Of a DNA stretch of 37,658 bases, positions 5,665-11,630 are shown piece after piece. The stretch covers positions 70,108 to 107,765 of the forward strand of contig CALHLF010000010.1 of assembly GCA_938034905.1 (NCBI GenBank). Reading direction: 5' to 3'. The position numbers were made by a program, and so were the translations under genes. The notes beneath the pieces are model-generated. The model saw only the letters and a program-made list of their open reading frames with translations. It was not told the DNA's origin and did not search any database. Position 1 is the stretch's first letter. Each line of letters begins with the position of its first letter. Source of the stretch: an uncultured bacterium. GTDB lineage: Bacteria; Dictyoglomota; Dictyoglomia; Dictyoglomales; Dictyoglomaceae.

Positions 5665-5888
5665 TAATCCTCTTTGACTTCCTCTGGTATGTTTAATAGC
5701 TTATAAACTTCTTCTACATTTTTCTTATAAAGTTCAGATTTTTCTAATTCTCCCTTCTCTTTATAAATTTCTGATAAAATAAGAGATATTTCTAAAATAT
5801 TCTCAAAACTATTGATTTCTTTATAATAGCTCAAAATCTTTAAAAGGGTTTCAATTAAATCTTGAAATTCTCTCACTCCTTTTTTCAT
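5664..5888 (-). CDS. Small helical protein, TPR-like
   Basis: A 74-residue, Lys/Glu-rich protein predicted to be all-helical, with a pattern (SEIYKEKGELEKSELYKKN) resembling one tetratricopeptide repeat. It overlaps the stop of the upstream cyclase/ATPase gene in an ATGA arrangement, and the MFS gene starts on its stop codon. Because the upstream protein ends inside a TPR region, this could be the detached last repeat of an originally longer protein, separated by a frameshift; or it could be a co-translated partner. No independent function can be assigned. Confidence 0.6.
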   Translation of the reverse strand: MKKGVREFQDLIETLLKILSYYKEINSFENILEISLILSEIYKEKGELEKSELYKKNVEEVYKLLNIPEEVKED

Positions 5889-7897
5889 TCTTTTTTGAAC
5901 TCAAGATATATAAGATTTTTCTCAAATAGTTTTCTTTCAGGAATTTTTCTTTTATTTTTTAACTTTTCTCCAACCCTTTTTAAGGTCTTTTCTGCCTCTT
6001 CCAACTTATTACCCTTAATCTGGGCAGAGGATAAGTAAATTAAAGCAAGAATTAGCCATTCCTCAACCCCTAAACTCTCCCATAGTTCTACTGCCCTTTT
6101 AATATATCTTTCTGCCAATCCCAAATTTTCCATAGCTAAATAACAGGTCCCTATATTACATAAAGAATGGGCTATACCTGAGAAGTATTTTATTCTTTCA
6201 CATATATTTAAAGCCTTCTCATACAAGGTATAAAGATCATCTCTTTCCCTTCTTATAAATCTTAATTTTTGAAGTTTTGAAAGGGTACTTTTTATCTCAT
6301 CAATACTATATTCTCCTTTACTAAAGTAGATAATATCATTCAGAGAAAATCTTTTCCCCACTATAGAAGCCCAACAAAGGATATTTTTTGCTAAAGAATC
6401 TAAGGAATCTATTCTTGTCTGCATAATCCCATATATATTATCGGGAATCTTGTTTAAGATTTCTTCCACCTTAAAATTTCTCTCTTTAATAATTCCTGAT
6501 ATCTCTTCTAAGAATAAGGGTTTTCTTCCCAATCTCCTTACAATTTCATCGATCATCCTTATATTTAAGTTCGGAACAATTTGATTAAGTAATTCCTTGG
6601 CTTCTTCAAAGGAAAGGGGATTAAGATAAATATATAGATCTGGGCAAAGACCTTTTAGGGTTTTGCGAAGAACTTCATTAGTTCTATAAATTAATATAAA
6701 ACTTATGGGAAAGGATTTTCTAAGATTAACAATCTCCCTAAGAACTCTTATAGTAGAAGCATCTCCCCAATGAAGATCATCAAAAACAAATATAACAGGT
6801 TTATCTTTATATGTGGAAATAAAAATTTCTTCCAACAATATTTTCCACAATTGTTCCTTTGAGCTTTGATCCCATTGGGATAAGAGGTCCTTTTTTGAAA
6901 GAAATAAAAAATTTAATATTAAAGATTTATAGTATTCTAAAGGTATTATAATTTCCCTTTTAGCAAAGATCTTTTTTAATTTTCTTTCTATCTTTTCCTC
7001 TACTTCATTATCTTTAATCTTCCATATACTTTTTATAATCTCAAGTATAGGATAATAAGGAAAATTAGATGTATAGGAGTAGGCTCTTCCTTTATACCAA
7101 ATAAAATCGTTCTGAAACTTATTCTTTACTTCTTTAATCAATCTTGATTTTCCAATCCCTTCTTCTCCTTCTATTAAAATTAAAACCCCTTTATCTTCAA
7201 TCTTCCTCAAAATATTCTCTATATTTTTTAACTCCTTTTTCCTTCCCACAAAGGGAAATATTAAATTTTTTCTTTCTTTTCTCTCTCCTATTACTAAATA
7301 AGCTTCTACTTCTTTATTGAGTTTTTGTATATTAAACTTACCCAATTTTTTATATAAAAATCTTTTACTTGCTAACTTCAAAGTATTAGAGGTAACAATA
7401 ACTCTGTCTAAGGGGCAAAAATTCTGAAGATAAACTCCCTCATTTACAGGATCTCCTAATAAATCTAATTCTCCTTTTAACATTCCCTGCCAAACTTTTC
7501 CAGTAGATATAGCTATTTTTAAAGAGAGTTCTGGAATATCCTTCTTGATTTCTCTTACCTTATTTAAAATGGACAAGGAGGCCAAAATAGCTCCGTCTGC
7601 AAAATTCTCAAAGGATTTTGGAACTCCAAAGGCAGATATAAAACCATCACCTAAAAATTTTATTATCCTTCCACCATATTTTTCTACTTCTTTTTCAAGG
7701 ATATTAAATAGTTCTTTTATAAGCTCTGCAGTATCATCTACGCCTAATTTTGATAGGATTTGACTGTAGTTTTTCAAGTCTAAAACTAAGATAGAAGCTA
7801 ATTTTAATTCTTCCTTTATCTCTCCTAAAGGTTTTCCACAATTATAGCAGAATTTTGCCTCTTCGGGATTATCGGTTCCACAATTTGAGCATTTCAT
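5885..7897 (-). CDS. Zinc-ribbon, adenylate-cyclase-like, STAND-type ATPase protein
   Basis: A 670-residue multidomain protein. Residues 3-20 form a zinc ribbon (Cys3, Cys6, Cys17, Cys20). Residues 35-200 are a class III nucleotide cyclase domain: metal-binding Asp40 and Asp84, adenine-selecting Lys80 and Asp145, and Asn152 are present, but the transition-state Arg expected four residues after Asn152 is Tyr156. An AAA/STAND ATPase follows, with Walker A GEEGIGKS (244-251) and Walker B ending in Asp373-Asp374. TPR-like helices run from about 557 to the end. Relatives are usually about 1000 residues or more; here the winged-helix part appears joined directly to a TPR near residue 555. A regulatory or signal-transduction role is likely. 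It lies 6 nt after the ATP-grasp gene in the same operon. Confidence 0.8.
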   Translation of the reverse strand: MKCSNCGTDNPEEAKFCYNCGKPLGEIKEELKLASILVLDLKNYSQILSKLGVDDTAELIKELFNILEKEVEKYGGRIIKFLGDGFISAFGVPKSFENFADGAILASLSILNKVREIKKDIPELSLKIAISTGKVWQGMLKGELDLLGDPVNEGVYLQNFCPLDRVIVTSNTLKLASKRFLYKKLGKFNIQKLNKEVEAYLVIGERKERKNLIFPFVGRKKELKNIENILRKIEDKGVLILIEGEEGIGKSRLIKEVKNKFQNDFIWYKGRAYSYTSNFPYYPILEIIKSIWKIKDNEVEEKIERKLKKIFAKREIIIPLEYYKSLILNFLFLSKKDLLSQWDQSSKEQLWKILLEEIFISTYKDKPVIFVFDDLHWGDASTIRVLREIVNLRKSFPISFILIYRTNEVLRKTLKGLCPDLYIYLNPLSFEEAKELLNQIVPNLNIRMIDEIVRRLGRKPLFLEEISGIIKERNFKVEEILNKIPDNIYGIMQTRIDSLDSLAKNILCWASIVGKRFSLNDIIYFSKGEYSIDEIKSTLSKLQKLRFIRRERDDLYTLYEKALNICERIKYFSGIAHSLCNIGTCYLAMENLGLAERYIKRAVELWESLGVEEWLILALIYLSSAQIKGNKLEEAEKTLKRVGEKLKNKRKIPERKLFEKNLIYLEFKKE

Positions 7898-7903
7898 GTA
7901 AAA

Positions 7904-8857
7904 TTATGTTCCTTTAATTCTTTTTAAAGCACTCTGAAGAATTTTTAATATTAAATCTTTATAGGAATATCCTTTAGCATTAGCCATCTTTATTATATCC
8001 GAATAATTGGGAATTAATAAAGGTAAAGAATTAACGTCTAAGATATGTATTTTATCTTCTTTAATTCTCATATCAATTCTTGCATAATCCCTAAGTCCAA
8101 AGGATGTAAAAATTTTTTTGGAAATTTCTTCTATCTTTTTCTCTATATTTTTTTCTATTCTTGCAGGACAAATATATTTTGTTTTATCTCCATATTCTTT
8201 TTTTACCCTCTCAGAGTAAAATTTTTCAATATCTTCAGGAATAGAAGAAAAATCAATCTCTAATAAAGGAAGGATTTCTAAATTATCATTATTTCCAATT
8301 ATTCCAACACTTATTTCTTTTCCTTCAATATACTCTTCTACAAGGGCCTCCTCCTCAAATTCTTCATGTATAAACTTTACAGCTTTTTCCAATTCTTTCC
8401 TGTTATCTACTAAAGATTCCTTTCTTATACCTTTTCCACTACCCTCTCTATTTGGCTTTACAAATAATGGAAAGGAAAGATCTATATCCTTAGGAAGATC
8501 TTTCCCAAAGGGGATAAGAATATATTTGGGAGTATCAATTCCGTAATAGTTAAGCACTATTTTTGTTAGGTTTTTGTTAACACATAGAGAATGAGTGTAG
8601 GCATTGGATCCTATATATTTTATACCTAAAAAATCACAGATAGAGGGAATAATAACTTGTTTTGTTTCCCTCCCTTGAGTATGTAGGTTAAATATGAGAT
8701 GGGCTTTTTTTATTTTTTCTATAAAACTTAAGTCTTCGAAGGATATGGGAATTAACGAAACTACATAGCCTTCCTCTTTTAAAATTTTTTCAATTTCCTT
8801 TACCATCAATTGATAATCCTTTGTTGTTGGAAAATTGAAAGTTAATCCTATGTGCAT
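7904..8857 (-). CDS. ATP-grasp ligase, D-Ala-D-Ala-ligase-like
   Basis: A 317-residue ATP-grasp enzyme that should join a carboxylate, through an acyl-phosphate, to an amine. An LFVKPNREGSGKGI segment is the ATP-binding lysine/glycine loop. ALVEEYIEGKEISVG is the hinge region, and ARIDMRIK plus HILDVNSLP supply metal ligands in the positions of the EVNTLPG motif of D-Ala-D-Ala ligase. The GEDG segment and the N-terminal Glu/Ser residues of a true Ddl are not evident, so peptidoglycan D-Ala-D-Ala synthesis is unlikely to be its job. It starts 10 nt inside the end of the B12-protein gene, so the two are probably translationally coupled. Likely substrates are amino acids made by its operon partners; unproven. 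Confidence 0.8.
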   Translation of the reverse strand: MHIGLTFNFPTTKDYQLMVKEIEKILKEEGYVVSLIPISFEDLSFIEKIKKAHLIFNLHTQGRETKQVIIPSICDFLGIKYIGSNAYTHSLCVNKNLTKIVLNYYGIDTPKYILIPFGKDLPKDIDLSFPLFVKPNREGSGKGIRKESLVDNRKELEKAVKFIHEEFEEEALVEEYIEGKEISVGIIGNNDNLEILPLLEIDFSSIPEDIEKFYSERVKKEYGDKTKYICPARIEKNIEKKIEEISKKIFTSFGLRDYARIDMRIKEDKIHILDVNSLPLLIPNYSDIIKMANAKGYSYKDLILKILQSALKRIKGT

Positions 8858-10485
8858 AGTAGTCTTTCAATTCTTTCTTTTTCTTTAATTATTCTTCCTC
8901 TGCTATCTATACAGTAATTAGCTCCGTTAATTACCTGAGTTCTTACCTCTCCTTTGGCAATGGAAAATCCTTTAAGTCCAGGAGCGTCTAAAATTCCACA
9001 CTTTATTGCATTATAAATATTCTCAGGAGATAGAAAATCTTTTTCTGATTTTGCCAAGCTTTTTATAGCTGATAAGATAAAAAGGGCTTCTTCTTTTAAC
9101 TCTTCTTTTCTCTCTTGAACTTCAGGATCAGAAGAAAAGTCAGGAAGACCCCATGAGGTTAAAATATATGCTCTCTTTACCATCTTTATGCTCTCTATGA
9201 TTTCTTTACTTGTAGCAGGATATAAAGCCTCACAGTAGGATACTACATGGATTATATTAGGTTTTAAATATGAGCCGTAAAAAATAGAAGATACAAGCTG
9301 TCCCATAGCTGAATAAGGATCTGCAGGAAAAGACAAAAGTCCTGTTCGGATCATTATATAGGGAGTAAAATTCTCATCTTTAAGGTTATCTAATAATTCT
9401 AATTTGGCAAGGGATTTGGCAATATCCATTTTGGGAGATAAATTGGGAGGAGTATTTAACATAATTTGAGCAATATATTCCTTTACTCCTAATTTTTTTG
9501 CCACTAATGCTGAGATATAAAAAGTAGCAACCCCAATGGAATCATGAGCATTTCTCAATTCCCATTGATGAGATTCATTTATTTCTACCGGAACATTATT
9601 TTCCACATTCCATTTTATAGCAGAAATATTTTCCTTTATAGCAGATAGAAGCTCTCTATCAGATCTTCTATCCAGTTGAGAATACCAAGTAAGGGGGATA
9701 GCAGCCCATGCATTGTTTATAGTCTCCTTTAAAAGTTTTGAAAATTCAATTAAATTTCTCGTTCCAGAATAGCATCTTAATAAAGGATAATTCCCTCTTC
9801 GTGAAGCCTCATATAACCTTATAAAGTCTTCTCTTTTTCTTAGTGGAACTCCCCCTGCCCCATCCTGCTTTGGATCCATTTTATCAGGCTCAAAGAAATA
9901 ACTTTGAGTATTTTGGTCGGGAGCAATAGATATAATATCAAGTAGCAAAGAATCTGCTAATTTTTCAATCTCTTTTATAGTTTGTTCCAAGCTTGGAAGT
10001 CCTATATGATGTCTAAAAAGGGGAAATGGCTTTTTCCATATGATTCTCTCCTTTAAGTTTTGAGGATAATCCTTTTTCTTGTCTTTGGATATAACTTCTC
10101 CTTGAATACTCTTTAAAAAATCAATAACATCTTCAATTTCTTCAGTTCCATCAAAAACTTTGTAGATAAAGGAAAATTCTCTGGCAGTATCGCCTGTTTC
10201 CTTTGTTCCCCCAAAAATAAAGATTCTATTTTCAAGCAAGTTTTTACTCTTGAGTTCTTTTTCTAAATCTAAAAGGAGATTTTTTAAGGGACCTTTTCCC
10301 AATCTATAGCTTATAGCCACAATTTCAGGATTTGCTTCCAATATGGCTCCAATTAATTCCTTTATAGAGATAGCTCCTCCAAGATAGATAGATTCAAAAC
10401 CTAAATTTTTAGCAAGTTCCAAAAAATTTAATAATCCTGCTACATGAATACAGCTACCAATACTTGCCCCTAAGATTTTCTTCAT
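8848..10485 (-). CDS. Single-chain glutamate-mutase-like coenzyme B12 protein (MutS-MutE fusion)
   Basis: A 545-residue protein with an N-terminal cobalamin-binding Rossmann domain (about 1-135) joined to a TIM-barrel half. The base-off B12 motif is GSCIHVAG with cobalt-ligand His14 and Gly17; the Asp of the usual DxHxxG is Cys12. IFGGT (90-94) is the downstream GG motif. By eye, residues about 155-545 follow the glutamate mutase epsilon subunit, including the C-terminal 'GILDAPG... DSRGRI' stretch, but the arginines and glutamate that bind glutamate in MutE are not clearly kept. It likely catalyses a carbon-skeleton rearrangement of an unidentified acid or amino acid. Its ATG overlaps the stop of the opine-dehydrogenase gene (ATGA). 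Confidence 0.75.
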   Translation of the reverse strand: MKKILGASIGSCIHVAGLLNFLELAKNLGFESIYLGGAISIKELIGAILEANPEIVAISYRLGKGPLKNLLLDLEKELKSKNLLENRIFIFGGTKETGDTAREFSFIYKVFDGTEEIEDVIDFLKSIQGEVISKDKKKDYPQNLKERIIWKKPFPLFRHHIGLPSLEQTIKEIEKLADSLLLDIISIAPDQNTQSYFFEPDKMDPKQDGAGGVPLRKREDFIRLYEASRRGNYPLLRCYSGTRNLIEFSKLLKETINNAWAAIPLTWYSQLDRRSDRELLSAIKENISAIKWNVENNVPVEINESHQWELRNAHDSIGVATFYISALVAKKLGVKEYIAQIMLNTPPNLSPKMDIAKSLAKLELLDNLKDENFTPYIMIRTGLLSFPADPYSAMGQLVSSIFYGSYLKPNIIHVVSYCEALYPATSKEIIESIKMVKRAYILTSWGLPDFSSDPEVQERKEELKEEALFILSAIKSLAKSEKDFLSPENIYNAIKCGILDAPGLKGFSIAKGEVRTQVINGANYCIDSRGRIIKEKERIERLLCT

Positions 10486-11567
10486 TTCTCTCCCTCTTCA
10501 ATATATTTAATTATCTCCTCAACAGTCATATTATTGAGTCCTAAACTTTCTACAGTTCTTCCTTTAGCAAAGTAATCTTCTCCTATCATTATAGAAGCAA
10601 GATGAATTATAGAATCTATAGTAGGAGTTGAAATACCAAAATATCTTCCAAAAGAGGAGATAGGCACAAGACTCATAGGTACGTCTTCTAATATATATCT
10701 ATTAGCTATAACAGTAGGAGCTAGAATATCTCTATATCCTGAATTACTATGGATAGCTTCATATAAATCCTTTCCATCTACGTCATAGGCATATTTTAGC
10801 CATTGCTTTGCAGTAAGGGGTTCTGTTTTAAGAGTTCTCATAACTTTACATCTTTCTTCATCAATTGCTTCTAAAACTTTGGCTACCGAGGGAGATATTC
10901 CCTCAAAATAGAACTCGAATTTACCAAAGGTAAATTCAATTCTTGCTGCATTAAGAATAGTGGTTGCAGGATGAAATATAGCACCTATATTGTTAAAACT
11001 TGTAATGATAATATTTTTAGCAATTTCAAATTCAGGCATTACTTTTTTTAAAGTTTTTTGCAAAATCGGATTATCTTTAGCAGGAAGGCAAGAAACAGGT
11101 ACTGCATTTTTCTTTTTAAATATTCTCACAACTCCAGGATTAGAGCATCTTGAGGCGAATATAAAAGTTTGGGCTTCTGCTATATATACCTTTTTATTAC
11201 ATCCTACCTCCTTTAAAACCTTTCTAAATTCTAATGCTCCCCCTGTTCTCCCTGGATTCAAGATTACTATTTGTCCCTCCTCTAAATGGGGAGCTAATTT
11301 TTCTGCAATGTCTTTATGGGCAAAGGCAGGAACTACAACTAAAATCAATTCCCTATCTTTAATAGCCTCTTTTATATCGGTAGTTGCTAAGGATATTTCG
11401 TATTCTCCTGAATATTCACCCTCTAATATGACTTTTCCGGTGTTTATTATGGGCTCTATTCTCCATAGACTACGGTTATATAAAGAAATATCATAACCTT
11501 TCATGGAAAGATATCCTGCTAAAGCTTGCCCTCCGTTTCCTGCTCCAATAACACAGATTTTAAGCAA
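10482..11567 (-). CDS. Octopine/nopaline dehydrogenase family enzyme
   Basis: A 361-residue NAD(P)-dependent enzyme of the opine dehydrogenase family, whose members reductively condense an amino acid with a 2-oxo acid. The N-terminal Rossmann motif GAGNGGQA, a central NNIGAIFHP with the family's catalytic His, and a C-terminal helical domain with the family's 'GRYFGISTPTIDS' segment are visible. The start is TTG at 11567, with a weak GAGGCGAG site and a good promoter upstream. It is the first gene of the six-gene operon and overlaps the B12-protein gene by 4 nt. Related proteins of unknown function are common in anaerobes, so the substrates are open. Confidence 0.82.
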   Translation of the reverse strand: MLKICVIGAGNGGQALAGYLSMKGYDISLYNRSLWRIEPIINTGKVILEGEYSGEYEISLATTDIKEAIKDRELILVVVPAFAHKDIAEKLAPHLEEGQIVILNPGRTGGALEFRKVLKEVGCNKKVYIAEAQTFIFASRCSNPGVVRIFKKKNAVPVSCLPAKDNPILQKTLKKVMPEFEIAKNIIITSFNNIGAIFHPATTILNAARIEFTFGKFEFYFEGISPSVAKVLEAIDEERCKVMRTLKTEPLTAKQWLKYAYDVDGKDLYEAIHSNSGYRDILAPTVIANRYILEDVPMSLVPISSFGRYFGISTPTIDSIIHLASIMIGEDYFAKGRTVESLGLNNMTVEEIIKYIEEGEK

Positions 11568-11599
11568 TTTTCTCGCCTCGGTTCATATTCTTTTTTAAG

Positions 11600-11629
11600 A
11601 GGATATCATTTTTTTATTTAAATCGTCAA
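11600..11629 (-). promoter_or_regulatory. Promoter of the opine-dehydrogenase/B12/ATP-grasp operon
   Basis: On the minus strand TTGACG (11629-11624) and TATCCT (11605-11600) are 18 bp apart, 33 bp before the TTG start. No terminator is visible after uppP just upstream, so readthrough from the rpmH-uppP operon is also possible. At 63 bp the gap is too short for a cobalamin riboswitch. Confidence 0.6.
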
Positions 11630-11630
11630 A

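Follow-up and report, generated by a model that had tools for sequence, protein, structure and literature searches.

The window, a stretch of 37,658 nucleotides from an uncultured bacterium of the Dictyoglomaceae, carries a cassette of three overlapping minus-strand genes (7904-11567), in which the dehydrogenase and mutase genes share 4 bases and the mutase and ATP-grasp genes share 10. In the direction of reading, its features are as follows:

11568-11630, minus strand: 63 bases separating bacA/uppP from the dehydrogenase gene, with GAGG before the TTG start and no riboswitch found
10482-11567, minus strand: Octopine_DH-family (opine-type) dehydrogenase, 361 aa, TTG start (PF02317, 158.6 bits)
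8848-10485, minus strand: single-chain cobalamin-dependent mutase-like protein, 545 aa (open reading frame, profiles, fold model)
10092-10485, minus strand: its N-terminal B12-binding domain, about residues 1-131 (PF02310; PDB cobalamin proteins via the family profile)
8893-10038, minus strand: its C-terminal MutE-type TIM barrel, about residues 150-531 (hhalign, AlphaFold/Foldseek, weak PF06368)
7904-8857, minus strand: ATP-grasp ligase related to D-Ala-D-Ala ligase, 317 aa (PF07478, 125.6 bits)

Beyond the ATP-grasp gene, and 6 bases from its end, follows a gene for a 670-aa protein with a zinc ribbon, a nucleotide cyclase domain, an AAA ATPase and TPR (5885-7897, minus strand), which we set aside as incidental because it was not seen at other cassette loci.

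The mutase frame opens with an ATG at 10485 and runs for 545 residues, with the B12 domain first, then a linker and then the MutE-like barrel. Taken singly, the window protein stays below the Pfam cut-offs for both halves (PF02310, 28.3 bits against 32.1; PF06368, 17.4 bits at residues 316-502 against 26.6), but both become firm in an alignment of 81 family members. PF02310 is matched by all 81 members (best 1.1e-14), the family profile recovers cobalamin proteins of the PDB over residues 2-133 (4jgi, 1.9e-8; ornithine aminomutase, 5e-7), and hhalign of the family against an alignment of ten MutE proteins pairs 346 columns over residues 157-527 (P=1.6e-6; 3e-8 in global mode). PF06368 is reached weakly, at E<=0.01, by 43/81 members, and the NCBIfam MutE model by four (best 1e-4). 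The AlphaFold2 model (mean pLDDT 94.1, with a low-confidence linker at 131-136) retrieves as its top PDB matches in Foldseek the glutamate mutase E chains 1cb7_B and 6h9e_B (best E 1.4e-16; TM 0.59 by query and 0.66 by target), with ornithine and lysine aminomutases and methylmalonyl-CoA mutase ranking next.

The open reading frame, the family-wide PF02310 matches, hhalign and the fold model thus agree on the single chain of cobalamin domain and TIM barrel that the preliminary description had read from the sequence, and the structure prediction that it had proposed returned the MutE-type barrel. The profile comparison with MutS and MutE that it had also proposed succeeded profile against profile and family-wide, but not with the window protein alone, and its appeal to the fusion as a mark of distinctness carries less weight than it was given: the fusion is real, but a true MutE is also fused to its S partner in Roseibium. 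The frame is kept across the best 80 of 169 matching loci at about 44-66% identity, and 59 columns of the family alignment are invariant. We found neither an NCBIfam equivalog nor a solved structure that spans the full chain, a plasmid search with the protein gave no match, and no close homologue among characterised B12 enzymes came to light, so that this is apparently a widespread B12-enzyme family with no characterised member found.

In the B12 domain the motif reads Cys12-x-His14-x-x-Gly17, the three residues being exactly as first described, and R61-L62 is invariant in the 81-sequence alignment. The cobalt-ligand His14 and Gly17 are present in 81/81 members, and at position 12 there are 75 Cys and six Asp (five Thermotogota and one Thorarchaeon), a pattern that needs three changes on the mutase tree; since the exchange runs both ways, we read it as a trait of the family rather than a sign of lost cobalamin binding. 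The Cys for Asp in DxHxxG, once offered as a hint of a new substrate, is genuine, but the six members that keep Asp make it weak evidence on that point.

The substrate pocket is more telling. In glutamate mutase, R66, R149 and E171 bind the glycyl part and R100 and Y177 the acrylate part (PMC10947579). When these residues are mapped onto the family by hhalign profile alignment (with the same placements in six hhalign settings), R66 falls on H160 (His in 81/81), R149 on Y239 (Tyr in 81/81), E171 on A261 (a small residue in the family) and R100 on a non-Arg position; Y177 corresponds to the invariant W267, and E330 and Y181 are retained as E419 and Y268. Also invariant are R158, H159, D190-Q191-N192, Q194, R216, R237, W260, D272, R274, R277, E301, H306, W308 and R311. 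As judged from the alignment, the pocket is strongly conserved yet unlike that of glutamate mutase, and the invariant R237, two residues from the R149-aligned position, may stand in for R149. The earlier impression by eye that the substrate-binding Arg and Glu residues of MutE are not conserved thus extends to the whole family, and the replacement of R66, R100, R149 and E171 makes a non-glutamate substrate likely, as had been suggested; that the host has a separate, ordinary glutamate mutase operon (see below) agrees with it. The evidence supports, as the best reading, a B12-dependent mutase-type enzyme with a non-glutamate substrate.

The dehydrogenase is of opine type in both domain and fold: its model (pLDDT 96.6) has 1bg6 as best PDB match (TM 0.92/0.96, 39% identity), and H199 and D295, which we take to be the catalytic His-Asp pair, are invariant in 69 sequences. 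By analogy with its family, it would condense an amino acid with a 2-oxo acid. A homologue adjoins the mutase in 79 of the 80 loci surveyed, and as these were the best-matching 80 of 169, this and the following fractions hold for the nearer part of the family. The sole mutase lacking a detectable neighbouring dehydrogenase gene is that of Youngiibacter fragilis (L022:5802-7460). The pair spans Thermotogota, Bacillota, Armatimonadota, Aminicenantes, Desantisbacteria, Omnitrophota, Atribacterota and several archaeal groups (Thorarchaeota, Lokiarchaeota and Theionarchaea).

Most of the functional information is held by this operon context. A third gene, scored only where co-directional with the pair, encodes an ATP-grasp protein at 17 of the best 80 loci and an asparagine-synthetase-like protein at nine, never both; about two thirds have the pair with neither ligase type adjoining. 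Aminicenantes have TldD/PmbA genes in the next position, and in Desantisbacteria genes for a CBS protein and a Na+/H+ exchanger follow. A small membrane protein encoded 3' of the pair at L039:9037-9726, with relatives in L044 and L053, weakly resembles a mechanosensitive channel helix (22.2 bits) and colicin V production protein. In Thermosipho (L005:6663-8891), genes for a MOFRL/DUF4147 (glycerate-kinase-like) protein and a 2-hydroxyacid dehydrogenase precede the pair and may supply a 2-oxo acid to the pathway. In Clostridiaceae bacterium 14S0207 (L015:4409-17844), a divergent pair, with a dehydrogenase about 35% identical to that of the window and an ATP-grasp gene in between, lies within a polysaccharide biosynthesis cluster that includes a Wzy-like protein.

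Rfam scans place a c-di-AMP riboswitch (RF00379) just 5' of the pair operon in Thermosediminibacterales, Tissierellia, other Bacillota and two unclassified bacteria, for example at:

L017:8600-8776, operon strand: c-di-AMP riboswitch (RF00379)
L033:7618-7758, operon strand: c-di-AMP riboswitch (RF00379)
L041:1254-1391, operon strand: c-di-AMP riboswitch (RF00379)

When a covariance model built from 12 operon riboswitches was run over 1.35 Mb, made up of the window and 82 related loci, it returned 21 matches in 20 distinct loci (L003 and L070 being one place). In 20/20 the element lies on the operon strand directly before the first gene, which encodes the dehydrogenase or the ATP-grasp protein, and none was found elsewhere in the 1.35 Mb. 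Riboswitch presence requires five changes on the mutase tree and occurs in several clades, so the association is not an accident of one clade. No such riboswitch was found in the window or host genome, nor in the Thermotogota loci scanned; the host genome does encode a c-di-AMP synthase. Promoter and terminator scans gave matches at chance level, including a promoter-like match in the 11568-11630 gap, and no scanned locus has a cobalamin riboswitch or T-box next to the operon; a single T-box, in L036, lies about 4.6 kb upstream of it.

The mutase is absent from six other genomes of the host's family, as is any Octopine_DH gene (two of the six genomes are partial), and this joint absence is consistent with gain of the two as one unit. 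Four of the six keep mnmE-bacA and have other genes after bacA, so that the cassette sits at a variable spot downstream of a fixed mnmE-bacA block. On the mutase tree the window protein groups with 12 Thermotogota and two Clostridiaceae sequences (100% SH-aLRT). On these phylogenetic and comparative grounds the cassette appears to have been gained laterally in the window's genome, with the direction unproven. Elsewhere in that genome the genes for MutL and methylaspartate ammonia-lyase adjoin that for a classical MutE, and the MutS gene is close by (contig C33, L085:1378-2838), which means that two glutamate-mutase-type enzymes coexist in one host; the genome also encodes a CobA-type adenosyltransferase, a member of the family that forms AdoCbl.

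Building on what was observed (the fold, the replaced glutamate-binding residues, the pairing, the position of the riboswitch and the patchy distribution), we infer a reaction, an order of steps, a substrate, a product and a physiological role. We hypothesize that the cassette is a mobile pathway of two or three genes, for an opine-type dehydrogenase, a B12 mutase and, often, a ligase that forms amides. The dehydrogenase, to judge from its family, would use NAD(P)H to join an amino acid to a 2-oxo acid; the mutase, carrying 5'-deoxyadenosylcobalamin on His14, would rearrange the carbon skeleton of the resulting opine, or of the amino acid that precedes it, by hydrogen abstraction in the barrel, as its fold suggests; and the ATP-grasp or asparagine-synthetase-like enzyme would cap a carboxylate as an amide or link a second amino acid. 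The product would probably be a neutral or zwitterionic compatible solute made at low c-di-AMP, that is, under osmotic stress. To our knowledge, a mutase that acts on an opine has no precedent.

That dehydrogenase, mutase and ligase together make an amino-acid-derived, probably osmoprotective solute has, in our judgment, about an even chance of being correct. In its favour are the near-constant pairing over many phyla (79/80, among the best 80 of 169 loci), the riboswitch that directly precedes the operon in 20 loci and is found nowhere else in 1.35 Mb, and the fact that the ligases encoded by the third gene are of two unrelated folds and never occur together. Amidation suits charge neutralisation, as in known amide solutes, and two unrelated amidating folds would fit a need for it. 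The CBS protein and Na+/H+ exchanger of some operons, or the weakly mechanosensitive-channel-like protein of others, suit osmotic stress; the joint absence of mutase and dehydrogenase from six host-family genomes fits gain as a unit; and the host has both a member of the AdoCbl-forming adenosyltransferase family and a c-di-AMP synthase. Against it stand the lack of a riboswitch in the window, host genome and scanned Thermotogota loci, the c-di-AMP riboswitches that also control cell-wall genes, the one locus within a polysaccharide cluster, and the roughly two thirds of loci where neither ligase type adjoins the pair. The fuller proposal is that anaerobic bacteria and archaea have a c-di-AMP-switched pathway to a compatible solute, in which an opine dehydrogenase and a carbon-skeleton mutase of a new kind produce a rearranged, N-substituted amino acid and an amide ligase caps it; this we hold more tentatively, at somewhat short of even.

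The same ligase and riboswitch could also serve the cell envelope, if the cassette made an unusual amino acid or opine for a cell-wall or surface polymer and the Ddl-like ligase formed the linking peptide bond. The kinship of the ATP-grasp protein to D-Ala-D-Ala ligase, the known use of c-di-AMP riboswitches by cell-wall genes, the clostridial pair that lies with an ATP-grasp gene and a Wzy-like protein in a polysaccharide cluster, and bacA/uppP directly upstream in the window all point that way. However, the window ATP-grasp protein scores far below every NCBIfam Ddl cut-off, and we rejected the bacA/uppP neighbourhood as a functional clue because relatives keep the mnmE-bacA block without the cassette, which makes the nearness incidental. 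Thorarchaeota, Lokiarchaeota and Theionarchaea, moreover, are not expected to make peptidoglycan, and their possession of the pair counts against a peptidoglycan-only role. We consider an envelope function unlikely.

Somewhat less probable again is a catabolic or redox pathway in which the pair feeds fermentation by breaking down an opine or amino acid taken up from outside. Anaerobic fermenters are common among the hosts, glutamate mutase is itself a fermentation enzyme, and an aminotransferase or hydroxyacid dehydrogenase stands beside the pair in some Thermotogota; yet its recurrent neighbours include no lyase, CoA-transferase or uptake system, the extra genes that do recur are ATP-consuming ligases, and c-di-AMP control is unusual for fermentation. 

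Returning to the mutase itself, its B12 domain alone scores equally against corrinoid methyltransferase proteins, OraE and MutS, and the ornithine and lysine aminomutases are its next Foldseek matches, as would be expected of a cobalamin-binding protein that is not a carbon-skeleton mutase, such as a corrinoid methyl-transfer protein or a PLP-dependent aminomutase. We find this decidedly improbable, given that the barrel matches glutamate mutase best and that the stretch bearing the PLP lysine in OraE (residue offset inferred) is an insertion missing from the family, with no invariant lysine in the B12 domain (residues 1-130); a PLP aminomutase was rejected on the absence of that stretch. An ordinary glutamate mutase fused into a single chain would explain the best fold match, the hhalign barrel alignment and the precedent in Roseibium, but deserves hardly any credence and was rejected on its active-site residues (R66, R100, R149 and E171 kept in 0/81 members), profile cut-offs (PF06368 not reached) and gene context (no MutL or methylaspartate ammonia-lyase adjoining, and a complete glutamate mutase operon elsewhere in the host genome). 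Even taken jointly, these last two accounts seem to us rather improbable.

The family is new within the B12 mutase fold class and has an undescribed partner system. Our literature search found nothing that links glutamate mutase with opine dehydrogenase or c-di-AMP with opines or octopine, which does not prove absence, and no description of the link between riboswitch and operon, with the proviso that an earlier survey (Nelson 2013) might mention the operon. Few AdoCbl carbon-skeleton mutase reactions are known, and a family with an altered pocket and a fixed partner enzyme offers a way to find another; with its opine dehydrogenase, and with the c-di-AMP riboswitch at many of its operons, a protein that lacked annotation becomes part of a pathway open to experiment. 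If the product is an osmolyte, salt-stressed hosts would accumulate a compound missing from the lists of known solutes, and if the B12 solute pathway is real, it would add a new mutase reaction as well as a new solute.

Several known systems share parts of this arrangement. With MutS/MutE of Clostridium cochlearium (1cb7, 6h9e) the mutase shares the Rossmann-type B12 domain, the His ligand, the TIM barrel and the invariant Glu (E330, here E419) and Tyr (Y181, here Y268); it differs in being one chain with the B12 domain first, at about 17% identity, in its replaced R66, R100, R149 and E171, in its usual Cys for the Asp of DxHxxG, and in its operon. The fused MutS-MutE of Roseibium aggregatum (WP_229006650) likewise has the B12 domain before the MutE barrel in one chain, but is a true PF06368 MutE (476 bits) outside the mutase family; encoded on a plasmid (L124:2664-4658, 664 aa) next to genes for an adenylation-domain protein, an aromatic amino acid lyase and a racemase, it probably belongs to a natural-product cluster with methylaspartate-type chemistry. 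D-ornithine 4,5-aminomutase and lysine 5,6-aminomutase also combine a B12 domain and a barrel, but are PLP enzymes with the B12 domain C-terminal or separate, and their lysine-bearing stretch is missing here. The closest regulatory parallel is the lysine-2,3-aminomutase that, under a c-di-AMP riboswitch, leads to the osmolyte N-epsilon-acetyl-beta-lysine (PMC9337991): the riboswitch class is the same and a radical amino-acid mutase is again placed under an osmotic signal, but that enzyme is radical-SAM/PLP rather than B12-dependent and has no opine dehydrogenase. The dehydrogenase, finally, resembles the N-(1-D-carboxylethyl)-L-norvaline dehydrogenase of Arthrobacter (1bg6) in sequence (39% identity; family E-value 5e-117), in fold (TM 0.92-0.96) and in the expected placing of the invariant histidine and aspartate, and is set apart from it by the B12 mutase that accompanies it in 79 of the best 80 of 169 loci.
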